Shown: in pieces, positions 28,233 through 33,138 of the stretch | Layout: each line of letters begins with the position of its first letter | How positions within the stretch are numbered: the stretch's first letter is position 1 | Source of the DNA: Haloferax sp. Atlit-12N | GTDB taxonomy: Archaea; Halobacteriota; Halobacteria; Halobacteriales; Haloferacaceae | DNA: 64,000 bases | Assembly: GCF_003383095.1 (NCBI RefSeq) | Contig: NZ_PSYW01000002.1 | Span: 558,001 to 622,000, forward strand | Direction of reading: 5' to 3' | Made by a program: the position numbers and the translations under genes | Notes under the pieces: model-generated | The model's input: the letters and a program-made list of their open reading frames with translations, nothing else | What the model was told of the DNA's origin: nothing | Databases searched by the model: none

Positions 28233-29546
28233 TCACAGCGGAATCCAGACGAGGACCGCGCCCAGCGCGCCGGCGAACGTGGCGAGGAAATTGACCGCCT
28301 GATTGCCGAGACCGGCTCCCTCGACCGTCGCGCCGAGCAGACTGTCGACCGTCATTCCGACGAGTCCGCCGGCGAGAATCGCGAGGGCGGCCGTCTGCGC
28401 CGGCAGGGGAAGCACCAGCACGCTCACGCCGGCCACGAAGGCCGCGCCCAGCGCGCCGGCGACTTCGCCTTGCCACGTGACCGCGCCGTCGGTCCCGGCG
28501 GGAACCGGTTTGAGTGAGGTGATGAGGCGTGGCTGGTCGAACAGTCCGCCGATTTCGCTGGAGAGCGTGTCGCTCATCGCGGCGGCGGCCGACCCGGCGA
28601 ACGCGAGCACGAGCAGGTCGCTGACGAACGGGTAGCCGAGCGTCTGCGCCACGGCGTAGCCGACGACGGAGACGAGCGAGACGCCCGAGTTGCCGAGGAC
28701 GTTGCCGGTCCCGCGAGCGCCGTCGTTGTCCTCGGCGACGCCGCGTTCGGCCTTGCTGTCGTAGCGGAACTTGGTGGCGAGCGCGCCGACGCCGAAGAAG
28801 GAGACGAGCACGAGCGCCCAGCCGAAGCCGCCGAAGACGACCGCGAAGAGAAGCAGGAGCACGCCGGTAATCATGCCGGCGACGGAGGCCGTGCCGAGGG
28901 CGTAGGCCGCGTAGCCGAGCGCGACCGTGAGGGCGAGCGCCACGCCGGTCTGCGTCGGCGACACCGGTCCCGCGAGCACCTCGACGCCCCAGAGGACGAG
29001 CCCGATAGAGAGCATGACGAGCGGGTCGTCGCGCTCGTAGAGGACCGTCCGGAGCACCGCGCCGACGAGGCCACCGACGGCCGCGAGGAGGGTGAACCGG
29101 GCGAGAAGCACCGCGTCACCCGTCAGCGACGCGATTGCCGCCTGTCCCGCGGTGCCGGCGAGGACCGCGGCCGCGACGAAGCCCGCCGCACGAAGCGACT
29201 CGTCGGACGTTCTCGAATCCACCAGTCGCGCACCGAGGTTGCCGTATGCGAGTGTCAACACCGCGGCGGCGAACACCGACAGCGGCATCGTGACGCGCGG
29301 GACCGTCGCCAAGAGGGCGAGGCCCGTCGCGGCCAGTGCGAACCCGGCGAGCCCGTTGAGCCGGCCGTCCTGCCGGTCACCGGGCCGCGCGAACAGCTCG
29401 AAGAGGGGGCCATCGTCGACGACGAAGGCCGCCAGGAGCGCGACTGCGGCGAAGGGCGCGAACGCGGCCGCGCCGAGACTGGGGGCCGCGAGGGCCAACG
29501 TCCCGACGACCGCGAATCCGCCCGCTCGCCGTACCGTGGAAGTCAC
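28233..29546 (-). CDS. DUF92 / TMEM19-family membrane protein
   Basis: A 437-residue protein with about 12 hydrophobic helices, of the DUF92 family. Relatives include plant VTE6 phytyl-phosphate kinase and phosphatidate-cytidylyltransferase-like proteins, so a polyprenyl-phosphate role is possible but not shown. The conserved part is the C-terminal half: KFRYDSKAERGVAEDNDGARGTGNVLGNSG, then SDTLSSEIG and DSLLGATVEG. The N-terminal 190 residues are an additional hydrophobic region. The start is GTG at 29546, with GGTTAAG about 27 bases upstream as a TATA candidate. It is divergent from a cis-prenyltransferase-like gene, which makes a polyprenol link more interesting. Confidence 0.82.
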   Translation of the reverse strand: MTSTVRRAGGFAVVGTLALAAPSLGAAAFAPFAAVALLAAFVVDDGPLFELFARPGDRQDGRLNGLAGFALAATGLALLATVPRVTMPLSVFAAAVLTLAYGNLGARLVDSRTSDESLRAAGFVAAAVLAGTAGQAAIASLTGDAVLLARFTLLAAVGGLVGAVLRTVLYERDDPLVMLSIGLVLWGVEVLAGPVSPTQTGVALALTVALGYAAYALGTASVAGMITGVLLLLFAVVFGGFGWALVLVSFFGVGALATKFRYDSKAERGVAEDNDGARGTGNVLGNSGVSLVSVVGYAVAQTLGYPFVSDLLVLAFAGSAAAAMSDTLSSEIGGLFDQPRLITSLKPVPAGTDGAVTWQGEVAGALGAAFVAGVSVLVLPLPAQTAALAILAGGLVGMTVDSLLGATVEGAGLGNQAVNFLATFAGALGAVLVWIPL

Positions 29547-29695: not shown

Positions 29696-30304
29696 GTGGG
29701 ACTGTACGACTCCTACCTCGCCCTCCGATTCCGCCTCGACGACGCCGACGCTCCCGAGCACGTGGCGCTCGTCATCACCGAGCGCGACCTGCTGGAACAG
29801 GGCGCGTACGAGACGCTCGAAGCGTTCGTCGGCTGGGCGTTCGAGTTCGGTAGCGACCGCGTCACCATCTCCGTGAGCGTCCTCGACGAGGCGGTCGTCC
29901 CGACGCTCGCTCGCGAACTCCGCGACCTCGACGTTCCCCAGCGAGTAGAGGTCCGCGAGCCCGGCGACACCGAGCGCGCCGACGCCCCGGTGCAGGTCAG
30001 CATCGGTCTCGGCGGGAAACGCGAGTTCGCCTCGGTGGTGCAGTCGCTGGCCACGGAAGTCGAGGAGGGCGCGCTCGACCCCGACGACATCGATGCCGCG
30101 GACATCGAACAGCGGCTCGTGTTCCCCGACGAACCCGACTTCGTGGTCAAGACGGGCGCGGAGCGCCTGTCGGACTTCATGATTTGGCAGTCCGTGTACG
30201 CGGAACTCTACTTCACCGACGTGAACTGGCGGGACTTCAGGAAGCGGGACTACCTGCGGGCGTTGCGGGACTATCAGGACCGCCAGCGGAGATTTGGCCG
30301 GTAG
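29696..30304 (+). CDS. Short cis-prenyltransferase homologue lacking the catalytic Asp (putative partner subunit)
   Basis: A 202-residue protein of the UppS (cis-prenyltransferase) fold. The C-terminal signature is intact: DFVVKTGAERLSDFMIWQ, then YAELYFTDVNWRDF, and YQDRQRRFG ending in an RxG motif (R199-F200-G201). The N-terminal catalytic motif HVAIIxDGNRRW has decayed to HVALVITERDLL, with Thr29 in place of the catalytic Asp. It should therefore be inactive alone. The pattern mirrors NgBR/Nus1, the non-catalytic half of eukaryotic dehydrodolichyl diphosphate synthase. The gene at 32209-33138 has the Asp but lacks RxG and could be the catalytic half. The start is GTG at 29696. A 9-bp stem hairpin spans its stop codon. 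Confidence 0.82.
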   Translation: MGLYDSYLALRFRLDDADAPEHVALVITERDLLEQGAYETLEAFVGWAFEFGSDRVTISVSVLDEAVVPTLARELRDLDVPQRVEVREPGDTERADAPVQVSIGLGGKREFASVVQSLATEVEEGALDPDDIDAADIEQRLVFPDEPDFVVKTGAERLSDFMIWQSVYAELYFTDVNWRDFRKRDYLRALRDYQDRQRRFGR

Positions 30305-30312
30305 GCCAAATC
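30291..30312 (+). terminator. Perfect 9-bp hairpin across the stop codon
   Basis: GATTTGGCC - GGTA - GGCCAAATC. The arms are perfect and the loop plus second arm include the TAG stop (30302-30304) of the short cis-prenyltransferase homologue. No T tract follows, so it may serve RNA stability or processing rather than termination. Confidence 0.4.
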
Positions 30313-30381
30313 CCGTGGCGACGTTGCCGACACCCCTCCTCGACCGCACAGATATGTTGATTGAGTAGCAACACGGTCCCA

Positions 30382-30744
30382 ATGCCCTCCACCTCACCCA
30401 ATAGAACAGACCTGCCCCCGCCGCCATCTCCGCCCACCGAGTGGCTCAAAGACGGACACGTCCTCCTTGCGCTCTCGCTGTTACTCATCCTCTGGCTCAA
30501 CCAGCCCGTCCAGCCAGACTGGCCGTGGGCGCTCGTCGGCGTCGCTGTCGTCCCGCCGTGGCTGTTCCTCGAATCGCGTTACGAGGGCTGGCGCTCGTGG
30601 GTTCCGACCGTCGCCTACGGCGGGGCGGTGCTACTGTTGGGGCCGCGGTACGAAGCCGAGTTCGTCGCCATCGTGCTCGGCCAGAGCGTCGCGTTGCTGG
30701 GTTGGTTCTGCTGGCGGGCGTTCCAGCGGCGGGTTCGCCGGTAG
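30382..30744 (+). CDS. Small membrane protein
   Basis: A 120-residue protein. A Pro-rich N terminus (residues 1-25) is followed by helices at about 32-45 (VLLALSLLLILWLNQPVQPDWPW, partly), 47-60, 73-88 and 92-108, and a basic C-terminal end (RAFQRRVRR). The function is unknown. The ATG at 30382 is supported by a GATATGTTGATT element about 27 bases upstream; a TTG seven codons earlier is unlikely. Confidence 0.65.
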   Translation: MPSTSPNRTDLPPPPSPPTEWLKDGHVLLALSLLLILWLNQPVQPDWPWALVGVAVVPPWLFLESRYEGWRSWVPTVAYGGAVLLLGPRYEAEFVAIVLGQSVALLGWFCWRAFQRRVRR

Positions 30745-30820
30745 GGTGACCCACCGCCGTCTCTCAAACGGCTGTTTGTGCGTACAGAAGACATATTGTT
30801 AGACCGCTGAACTGTCCGAC

Positions 30821-32182
30821 ATGAACCGCCGCGAGATGTTGGCACTGTCGGGGGCGCTCGCCGCCGCGACGATAGCCGGCTGTACGGGCGACGGGCAGTC
30901 GGCCGCCGAGACCGAGACCGAGGCGACGACCACCGCGACGGCGACCACGGACGCGCCGACAGAGACCCCGAACGACGAACCGCCGACCGGCGAACCGAGC
31001 GTGGACAACGAGCAACTGGCCGCGCTCGCGGCCGGCAACGCCGAGTTCGCCCTCGACCTGCACCGACAGGTCGCGTCCGAACAGGGCGGCAACCAGTTCC
31101 TCTCGCCGTACAGCATCTCCGTCGCGCTGGCGATGACCTACGCGGGCGCTCGCGGAACGACCCGCGAACAGATGGAAGCGACGCTCCACTACACGCTCGG
31201 GGAGGACGTTCACCCCGCGTTCGCAGACCTTCAGGCGGCGCTCGAAGCACGGGAGACGGCTCGGGACCCAGTCGATGGCGGCGAAGCCGACGCCTTCCGA
31301 TTGGCCGTGGCGAACGCGCTGTGGGGCCGCGAGGGGTTCGCGTTCTCGGAGGCGTTCCTCGACAGCCTCGAATCGAACTACGGGGCCGGACTCCGACGGG
31401 CCGACTTCGCCGGCGACCCGGACGGCGAGCGGGAACGAATCAACGAGTGGGTCGCCGACCAGACAGAGGGCCGAATCGAGGACCTACTTCCGGCTGGCTC
31501 CGTCACGCCCGACACGGCGCTCGTGCTCACCAACGCCATCTACTTCATGGCGCAGTGGGCGCACACGTTCGACCCCGAGGACACTGAGGACGGGACGTTC
31601 ACCGCGCTGGACGGCGCCGAGTCGACGGTGCCGCTCATGCGGCAGGAACTCAAGGCGAACTACGCCGACCTCCCGAACGCGCAGGCCGTCGAACTCCCGT
31701 ACGTCGGCCGGGACGTGTCGATGGTGCTTTTGCTCCCGGACGAAGGTGAGTTCGAGTCGTTCGAGCGGAGTCTGACCGCGAGCCGACTGTTCGGCGTCTT
31801 CGAGGAAATGCAAGAGAGAATCGGGGACGTCGTGCTCCCGCGGTTCGAGTTCGAGACCGAAGTCCAACTCTCGGAGGCGCTGTCGAACCTTGGGATGCCC
31901 GCCGCGTTCGGCTCAGATGCCGACTTCGGTGGAATGGCCGAGGGCGACGGGTCGGGCCTCGCCATCGACGAGGTGTTCCACAAGTCGTTCGTCTCCGTGG
32001 ACGAGGAGGGGACCGAGGCCGCGGCGGCCACGGGCGTCGTCGTCGCGACCTCGCTGCCGCCGAGTTGGGGCGAACTCCGGTTCGACCGGCCGTTCCTGTT
32101 CTGCATCCGCGACAGGCCGACGGACGCGATTCTGTTCTACGGTCGCGTCGTCGACGCCGGGGCTGCGCAGGGCGACGAATAG
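30821..32182 (+). CDS. Serpin, exported as a Tat lipoprotein
   Basis: A 453-residue serine-protease-inhibitor-fold protein. Residues 1-21 are a twin-arginine lipoprotein signal (MNRREMLALSG... TIAGC) with lipidation at C21. Residues 22-60 are a Thr/Glu/Pro-rich spacer. The serpin body follows: FLSPYSISVALAMTYAGARG, LVLTNAIYFMAQW and FHKSFVSVDEEGTEAAAATG. The hinge EEGTEAAAATG matches inhibitory serpins (small residues at P15-P9). Counting from it puts P1-P1' at about Ser-Leu, in VVVATSLPPS, which hints at chymotrypsin- or subtilisin-like targets such as secreted halolysins. The C-terminal FDRPFLFCIRDRPTDAILFYGRV is canonical. TATA candidate CATATTGTT lies 26 bases upstream. Confidence 0.93.
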   Translation: MNRREMLALSGALAAATIAGCTGDGQSAAETETEATTTATATTDAPTETPNDEPPTGEPSVDNEQLAALAAGNAEFALDLHRQVASEQGGNQFLSPYSISVALAMTYAGARGTTREQMEATLHYTLGEDVHPAFADLQAALEARETARDPVDGGEADAFRLAVANALWGREGFAFSEAFLDSLESNYGAGLRRADFAGDPDGERERINEWVADQTEGRIEDLLPAGSVTPDTALVLTNAIYFMAQWAHTFDPEDTEDGTFTALDGAESTVPLMRQELKANYADLPNAQAVELPYVGRDVSMVLLLPDEGEFESFERSLTASRLFGVFEEMQERIGDVVLPRFEFETEVQLSEALSNLGMPAAFGSDADFGGMAEGDGSGLAIDEVFHKSFVSVDEEGTEAAAATGVVVATSLPPSWGELRFDRPFLFCIRDRPTDAILFYGRVVDAGAAQGDE

Positions 32183-32198
32183 CCGCGAAAACAGTTCG

Positions 32199-32221
32199 GA
32201 CGGCCGACTCAGTCGGCCGTC
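32199..32221. terminator. Bidirectional hairpin between convergent serpin and uppS genes
   Basis: GACGGCCGACT - C - AGTCGGCCGTC: two perfect 11-bp arms around one base. It lies 17 bases past the serpin stop and overlaps the last codons and stop of uppS. It can fold on either strand and probably separates the two transcripts. Confidence 0.55.
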
Positions 32222-33138
32222 TCGTCGGTCCGCTTCGCCAACTCGGCGGACACCTCGTCGGCACCCGACGAGGGGAGTTGCTCGCGGAGGCGACCGGCGA
32301 CGGTGCGGGCGTCCTCTAACTCGACTTCGGCGACGGCCCGGACGAGCGTGACGGCGCGCTCGGTCCGGGTGCGCTGCCACGACTGCTCTCTGGACTCGTA
32401 GGTGCGGATGCCGCGCAGGAAGTCGACCTTCGAGAACTCCGGCCAGTAGGGTGCACAGAAGTAGACCGCGGCCTCGTTGCCGTTGGCGTGCCACGGCAGG
32501 AAGTTCGAGGTGCGCTCGTCGCCGCCGGGGCGGATGATGAGGTCCACGTCGCGGACGGGCTTTCTGGACAGGCGGCGGTCCACCGCCGACACGTCCACCT
32601 CGTCGGACGAGAGGTCGCCGCGGTCGACCGCTCGACAGACGTCGCGTGCGGCCCCGAGGAGTTCCGCCCGGCCGCCGTACGCGAGGGCGATGTTGAGCGT
32701 GAAGCTGTCGTAGTCGGCGGTCCGAGTCTCCGCGTACTCGACGGCGTCGCGGACCCGGTCGGGGAGCATCTCGACCTCGCCGATGGCGCGGACGGCGACC
32801 TCGCGCTCGTGGACGCGGTCGGCGTCGGCGAACTCGTAGAGTTTGTCCTCGATGAGGTCGAAGAGGGGCTGGCGCTCGTGTTCCGGCCGGTCGAAGTTCT
32901 CGGTCGAGAAGGTGTACAGCGTCAGTTCCTCGATGCCGAGTTCCTCGCACCACGTCAGCACGTCCTCGGTCGTCTGCGCGCCCGCCTTGTGGCCGTCGGG
33001 GGCGTCGTCCCCGTTCTTCCGGGCGTACCGGCGGTTGCCATCCTGGATGATGGCGACGTGGGTCGGTCCGTCGTCTATCTCCCGGTCGAGCACCCGCTCG
33101 TAGGCGCGCCGAAAGCCGCGTTGGACCCACCCGAACAT
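32209..33138 (-). CDS. uppS: cis-Prenyltransferase (undecaprenyl/dolichyl-type diphosphate synthase), catalytic-type subunit
   Basis: A 309-residue enzyme predicted to extend an allylic diphosphate with isopentenyl diphosphate in cis, giving the polyprenol carrier used for N-glycosylation of the S-layer. The catalytic Asp is D33 in HVAIIQDGNRRYAR. The FSTENFDRP (77-85) and NIALAYGGRAEL (149-160) motifs are present. The C-terminal signature is DLIIRPGGDERTSNFLPW. Where typical UppS proteins end with RxRRFGG, this one reads YESREQSWQRT, so the RxG motif that binds pyrophosphate is missing. A tail of about 50 residues follows. The short homologue at 29696 supplies the missing RxG, which suggests a heteromer. 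Confidence 0.9.
   Translation of the reverse strand: MFGWVQRGFRRAYERVLDREIDDGPTHVAIIQDGNRRYARKNGDDAPDGHKAGAQTTEDVLTWCEELGIEELTLYTFSTENFDRPEHERQPLFDLIEDKLYEFADADRVHEREVAVRAIGEVEMLPDRVRDAVEYAETRTADYDSFTLNIALAYGGRAELLGAARDVCRAVDRGDLSSDEVDVSAVDRRLSRKPVRDVDLIIRPGGDERTSNFLPWHANGNEAAVYFCAPYWPEFSKVDFLRGIRTYESREQSWQRTRTERAVTLVRAVAEVELEDARTVAGRLREQLPSSGADEVSAELAKRTDETAD

Follow-up and report, generated by a model that had tools for sequence, protein, structure and literature searches.

A Predicted Two-Subunit cis-Prenyltransferase Split Between Two Genes in Haloferax and Other Halobacteriota

Introduction

What do two cis-prenyltransferase homologs do in a haloarchaeal genome when each of them lacks a motif that the other one retains? 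This question is raised by two genes at positions 29696–33138 of a 64,000-nucleotide stretch of the Haloferax sp. Atlit-12N genome (contig NZ_PSYW01000002.1, positions 558,001–622,000), referred to here as the window. They encode proteins of 202 and 309 amino acids (aa), designated small and large, and are the only two members of the cis-prenyltransferase family PF01255 in this genome (G000, 4.0 Mb). The original prediction, made from the nucleotide sequence alone, proposed that they share the work as do the eukaryotic proteins DHDDS and NgBR. Our comparisons and structure models point to the same division of labor as the best-supported reading, because the motif loss is reciprocal across the phylum Halobacteriota, the two genes co-occur and are frequently arranged tail-to-tail, and the small and large models match NgBR and DHDDS, respectively. 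We regard it as very probable that the small and large proteins are subunits of one heteromeric cis-prenyltransferase, of which the complex, the insertion of the tail, the activity and the product are all predicted here.

Sequence Motifs of the Two Proteins

The small gene (29696–30304, + strand) has a GTG start and encodes the putative non-catalytic, NgBR/Nus1-like subunit. The 202-aa product matches PF01255 with 87.7 bits, above the Pfam cut-off of 27, and does so with its C-terminal half only (profile positions 109–219). In the N-terminal half it reads HVALVITERDLL at the place of HVAIIxDGN in active enzymes, which puts TERD (residues 28–31; 29777–29788, + strand) at the position of the catalytic D-G-N; from this alignment, the catalytic Asp is lost. 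The protein ends with RQRRFGR, in which RFGR-COOH (residues 199–202; 30290–30301, + strand) represents the RxG tail, and the chain stops one residue past the Gly of this motif. Judging by the alignment of relatives, the loss in the small protein concerns the first site and the helices of the tunnel and is not total: it has no aligned equivalents of E. coli R39, H43, S71, N74, and R77, and most relatives have Leu in place of R30, while several residues of the second, isopentenyl diphosphate (IPP) site are retained, namely E213 and mostly R200 and S202 (or Thr; E. coli numbering). No hydrophobic or transmembrane segment was found in the small protein, its best 19-residue mean hydropathy being 0.90.

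The large gene (32209–33138, − strand) encodes the putative catalytic, DHDDS/UppS-like subunit of 309 aa, which matches PF01255 with 223.7 bits against the same cut-off of 27. It reads HVAIIQDGNRR, with DGNRR starting at D33, and the catalytic D33-G34-N35 (33034–33042, − strand) is found in 129/129 relatives. In turn, YESREQSWQRTRTE stands at the position where homodimeric enzymes read ...RERRFG. Comparison with relatives places EQSW (residues 251–254; 32377–32388, − strand) where homodimeric enzymes have RRxG, and the RxG motif is lost. Other residues of the active site are well kept: D26, N28, R30, S71, E73, N74, R77, R194, R200, and S202 (E. coli numbering) are invariant in the 129 large relatives, with R39 not conserved, and 122 of them have Glu six positions past the conserved Trp, which corresponds to E213. 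The counterparts of the residues that contact the tail in the human enzyme, i.e., R36/R37, E80, N81, and R84 of the large protein, are invariant as well. Beyond EQSW, residues 255–309 (32212–32376, − strand) make up a C-terminal extension that is predicted to be helical in the model and, from the profile alignment to DHDDS, is DHDDS-like in position, a feature not included in the original prediction.

Neither of the window proteins combines the Asp and the RxG in one polypeptide, as homodimeric UppS does. The original description of the 202-residue homolog as having lost the catalytic Asp and ending in the RxG motif RFG, and of the 309-residue homolog as keeping D33 with EQSW instead of RRFG, thus agrees with the alignments. 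At the level of the motifs, its further claim that each protein lacks what the other supplies holds well beyond this locus, with reciprocal loss among the 136 small relatives and the 129 large ones.

Conservation of the Motif Split and Gene Order

Our sample of the class Halobacteria comprised 145 genomes of 58 genera, and the proteins compared included 92 small and 85 large ones from this class and 44 of each from elsewhere in Halobacteriota; some species may be sampled twice among them, under unnamed and named records. An ortholog of the small protein is present in 145/145 Halobacteria genomes, mostly with 57–99% identity over the full length (98–99% in Haloferax gibbonsii and Haloferax sp. 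Q22), and begins with a conserved MGLYD. At least two PF01255 genes were detected in 144/145 Halobacteria genomes and in 189/197 genomes of the Halobacteriota sample. Within the phylum, DGN is found in 0/136 small relatives, and 135/136 of them end exactly with R-x-G-x-COOH, the exception ending with KFGK. Among the large relatives, a single one (L159) of the 129 has an RxGx end. Its RAGE falls short of the canonical motif by one register and probably arose by chance, because the near relative L160 ends with RARE. The reciprocal split is present in every Halobacteriota lineage examined, and such conservation in the alignments excludes that it is a matter of chance.

The split persists even where the genes have diverged strongly. 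In genome G162, of the divergent family f19, the large protein ends with TLEKS and the small one with RERRFGR, although the small gene of this family is nearly beyond profile detection. Based on weak profile scores, G153 and G162 had been considered as a lineage without the small subunit; for G162 this was rejected, as its divergent small gene ends with RRFGR. In a tree of the phylum (~109 columns), the small proteins form one clade (support 100/93) against the large proteins, proteins similar to Methanosarcina mazei MM_0014, and E. coli UppS, and one ancient duplication and split is the simplest reading of this topology. A second large gene occurs in four Halobacteria genomes (G061, G098, G068, and G105); the extra large copies examined (L204, L206, L207, L209, and paralogs) have no RxG, and there is a single small gene per genome.

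Some lineages depart from the common pattern in other respects. Both subunits of L237, L240 (G246), and their relatives in family f15 contain long inserts of low complexity, which are rich in Ser in the small proteins and in Glu/Asp/Cys in the large ones. Three genomes of family f17 (G151, G160, and G169), 86–91% complete, have zero PF01255 genes.

As for gene order, the small and large genes of the window are convergent and lie 1904 bp apart, as stated originally (about 1.9 kb, opposite orientation). The same tail-to-tail arrangement was found in 67/67 Halobacteria loci with both genes, which are separated there by 22 bp to 8 kb. It also recurs in distant Halobacteriota lineages, where the 3' ends are ~10 bp apart (L144 and L146) or overlap by 48 bp (L147); these loci were chosen for the proximity of the genes, so that they illustrate the recurrence of the order and not its frequency.

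Structure Models and Profile Comparisons

In the model of the small protein (predicted local distance difference test score, pLDDT, 84.6), helix 3 is short and helix 4 is absent, so that little of the product tunnel probably remains. Residues 1–202 of the model superimpose on residues 80–291 of human NgBR (7pax_B) with a Z score of 14.9 and a root-mean-square deviation (rmsd) of 3.9 over 177 aligned residues. The model of the large protein (pLDDT 77.3) has helices predicted up to residue 307, past the catalytic domain, and matches DHDDS (7pb1_A) with a Z score of 28.5 and an rmsd of 2.2 over 241 aligned residues, UppS being matched equally well. The large-family profile aligns with DHDDS along 4–297/10–302, i.e., through residue 302, while the structural alignment of the extension is insecure. 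We also considered a specific affinity of the small protein to NgBR or of the large one to DHDDS and rejected it, as the sequence profiles do not favor the eukaryotic subunits over UppS.

Proposed Mechanism and Product

A parallel for the predicted mechanism is the human enzyme, in which the tail of NgBR (R290-L-G292-K293-COOH) reaches over the interface and forms part of the active site. There, the backbone of L291/G292 coordinates the second-site phosphate and the K293 carboxylate contacts R37 and R85 of DHDDS; deletion of K293 or addition of a terminal Ala diminishes activity, and the DHDDS homodimer is weakly active, about 400-fold slower than the DHDDS/NgBR complex (PMC7573591). In Haloferax, the active site would belong to the large subunit, in which Asp33 would serve Mg2+ and the allylic diphosphate; this subunit would also contribute the chain tunnel and the arginines of the two diphosphate sites, but it has no C-terminal RxG tail of its own. 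The small subunit would dock on it as one UppS chain does on the other in the homodimer, and its RFGR-COOH tail is predicted to reach across the interface into the large subunit's active site and there, acting in trans, to help to hold IPP and the diphosphates.

The expected product is a C55/C60 polyprenyl diphosphate that would be converted to dolichol phosphate, the carrier of N-glycans. In Haloferax volcanii, it is the C55 and C60 dolichol phosphate that carries the S-layer N-glycan (PMC3827465). From family chemistry and by elimination, the small/large pair should make the precursor of this lipid, because the genome has only two PF01255 members. The original prediction assigned both proteins to polyprenol synthesis for S-layer N-glycosylation; the dolichol phosphate precursor should be their product, S-layer N-glycosylation is one use of dolichol phosphate, and other polyprenyl-phosphate pathways could be served as well.

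Alternative Explanations

Several observations weigh against a two-subunit enzyme. The convergent orientation precludes co-transcription of the two genes, which are also unlinked in genomes of the Halorubrum type and in those of several methanogens. In one genome (G072) no large subunit was found, possibly owing to an assembly gap. NgBR is tied with several catalytic cis-prenyltransferases of UppS-type fold as a match of the small model, and the small-family profile scores 104 bits with E. coli UppS vs. 23 bits with NgBR. A clear inter-subunit coevolution signal was not found by background-corrected mutual information, an underpowered comparison of 112 pairs (effective ~66) that placed 4 of the top 20 inter-subunit pairs in the expected interface vs. 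1.7 expected, and 13 of the top 100 vs. 8.7. Moreover, the RxG tail may only enhance activity and not be strictly required, because human DHDDS alone retains weak activity; by the same analogy, some activity of the large subunit on its own would not be surprising.

With all its catalytic residues intact and its gene separately transcribed and sometimes unlinked from the small one, the large protein could form homodimers and suffice by itself as a polyprenyl diphosphate synthase, working without RxG. The small protein would then be a pseudoenzyme with some other function, for instance in regulation or in the binding of polyprenyl diphosphate, a role in keeping with the second-site Arg, Ser, and Glu retained in most of its relatives. 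We consider this improbable, as RxG is gone from all large relatives, bar the one probable chance case, and kept at the exact C-terminus of the small ones, both genes co-occur in essentially every genome, the additional large copies are also devoid of RxG, and the Methanosarcina orthologs, recognized by elimination, correspond to a heteromeric enzyme. Still harder to uphold is the idea that the small protein is itself active by means of E29 or D31 of TERD, which would make the pair two separate cis-prenyltransferases producing different chain lengths. T28, E29, and D31 are indeed invariant in the class Halobacteria and the IPP-site residues are mostly retained, but the lost first-site residues listed above (including R30, mostly Leu) and the reduced helices 3 and 4 of the model speak against it, as does the variation of E29 and D31 in divergent lineages of the phylum in which the RxG tail persists. 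Lastly, the N-terminal half of the small protein has no detectable cis-prenyltransferase profile match, as might be seen in a decaying duplicate with a conserved end due merely to shared ancestry. We give this view hardly any credence: the small orthologs of the class show 69% mean column identity and more than 50 invariant residues, occur in all 145 genomes with a fixed C-terminus, and belong to the single phylum-wide clade.

Neighboring Genes

The region between the two subunit genes (30361–32182, + strand) contains two inserts, a serpin gene and a 127-aa open reading frame that has two hydrophobic segments. Of the 80 loci examined, 7 have the reading frame and 6 the serpin gene, all of them from Haloferax. 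On its other side, the small gene adjoins a divergently oriented gene for a DUF92/TIGR00297 membrane protein (28233–29546, − strand), an arrangement found in 66/80 haloarchaeal loci. The plant DUF92 protein VTE6 is a phytyl-phosphate kinase, and by analogy the haloarchaeal neighbor is a candidate polyprenyl-phosphate kinase.

Significance

While the heteromeric kind of cis-prenyltransferase is already known, the generality of the two-part enzyme across the phylum is apparently new. A description of the haloarchaeal pair was not found in the literature searched, although the paper on the M. mazei enzyme may already list haloarchaeal homologs. Our reading predicts that the haloarchaeal gene resembling undecaprenyl diphosphate synthase encodes half an enzyme, and it would explain the short PF01255 protein found throughout the class. 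It would also widen the range of heteromeric cis-prenyltransferases, known from eukaryotes and one methanogen, to include most of an archaeal phylum. It would revise the view, expressed in a review (PMC7839719), that such enzymes typically belong to eukaryotes and make long products. Haloferax would offer a genetically tractable archaeal model of the tail-in-trans mechanism that human NUS1/DHDDS disease affects.

It also becomes possible to test where the eukaryotic enzyme came from. That the Asp/RxG split is ancestral in the whole of Halobacteriota and that DHDDS/NgBR descended from such an archaeal enzyme, rather than from an independent duplication, appears to us rather doubtful. The sequence profiles, which do not favor the eukaryotic subunits over UppS, speak neither for nor against a shared origin.

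Comparison With Known Systems

The nearest known system is the pair MM_0618/MM_1083 of M. mazei, from the same phylum, which is cited in PMC8131916 as a heteromeric cis-prenyltransferase with C45–50 products, likely for glycosyl carrier lipids (Emi et al. 2019); the Methanosarcina enzyme mentioned in the original prediction is real. Methanosarcina-type genomes encode an orthologous RxG-less catalytic protein and a D-less RxG partner (L168/L169), and two of them (G239 and G266) possess one further, MM_0014-like gene. By elimination, MM_0618/MM_1083 should be orthologous to the haloarchaeal pair, because the third cis-prenyltransferase, where present, is MM_0014-like. The Methanosarcina-type pairs examined are unlinked (e.g., in G250), whereas the haloarchaeal pair is mostly tail-to-tail, and the C45–50 product cited for M. 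mazei (PMC8131916) differs from the C55/C60 dolichol of H. volcanii (PMC3827465). MM_0014 itself and its M. acetivorans homolog are PF01255 enzymes of the same phylum that form a homodimer in which the C-terminus covers the partner's cavity (PMC8131916), but they represent a separate third paralog with a clade of its own. A relative (L203; G002:C1:478000–480600) accompanies the pair in one Halobacteria genome, and none is present in the genome of the window. The 562-aa frame of L203, considered as a natural fusion of both subunits, was rejected as such, being a separate MM_0014-like enzyme with an apparently spurious N-terminal frame. A family phylogeny of 2016 already noted a group of distant paralogs among euryarchaea (PMC5088576).

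The eukaryotic enzyme shows the same partition of motifs. Human DHDDS, like the large subunit, has the catalytic Asp and no RxG, and NgBR (NUS1) is an Asp-less partner ending with R-x-G-x-COOH, at the same end residue as the haloarchaeal small proteins. The C-terminal helix-turn-helix of DHDDS may have its counterpart in the predicted helical extension of the large subunit. The fold matches extend over the catalytic domain of the large protein and over the whole of the small one. In contrast to the haloarchaeal small protein, NgBR has an N-terminal transmembrane region; the haloarchaeal products are expected to be shorter, and the haloarchaeal subunits are no closer in sequence to the eukaryotic subunits than to bacterial UppS. 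In yeast, Rer2 and Srt1 both partner Nus1, a situation resembled by the extra haloarchaeal catalytic copies that share one small gene. Homodimeric UppS of E. coli and B. subtilis belongs to the same PF01255 family, has the same fold and gives its RxG tail across the dimer interface, as is predicted for the haloarchaeal pair; yet each of its subunits carries both the Asp and the RxG, which haloarchaea split over two genes.

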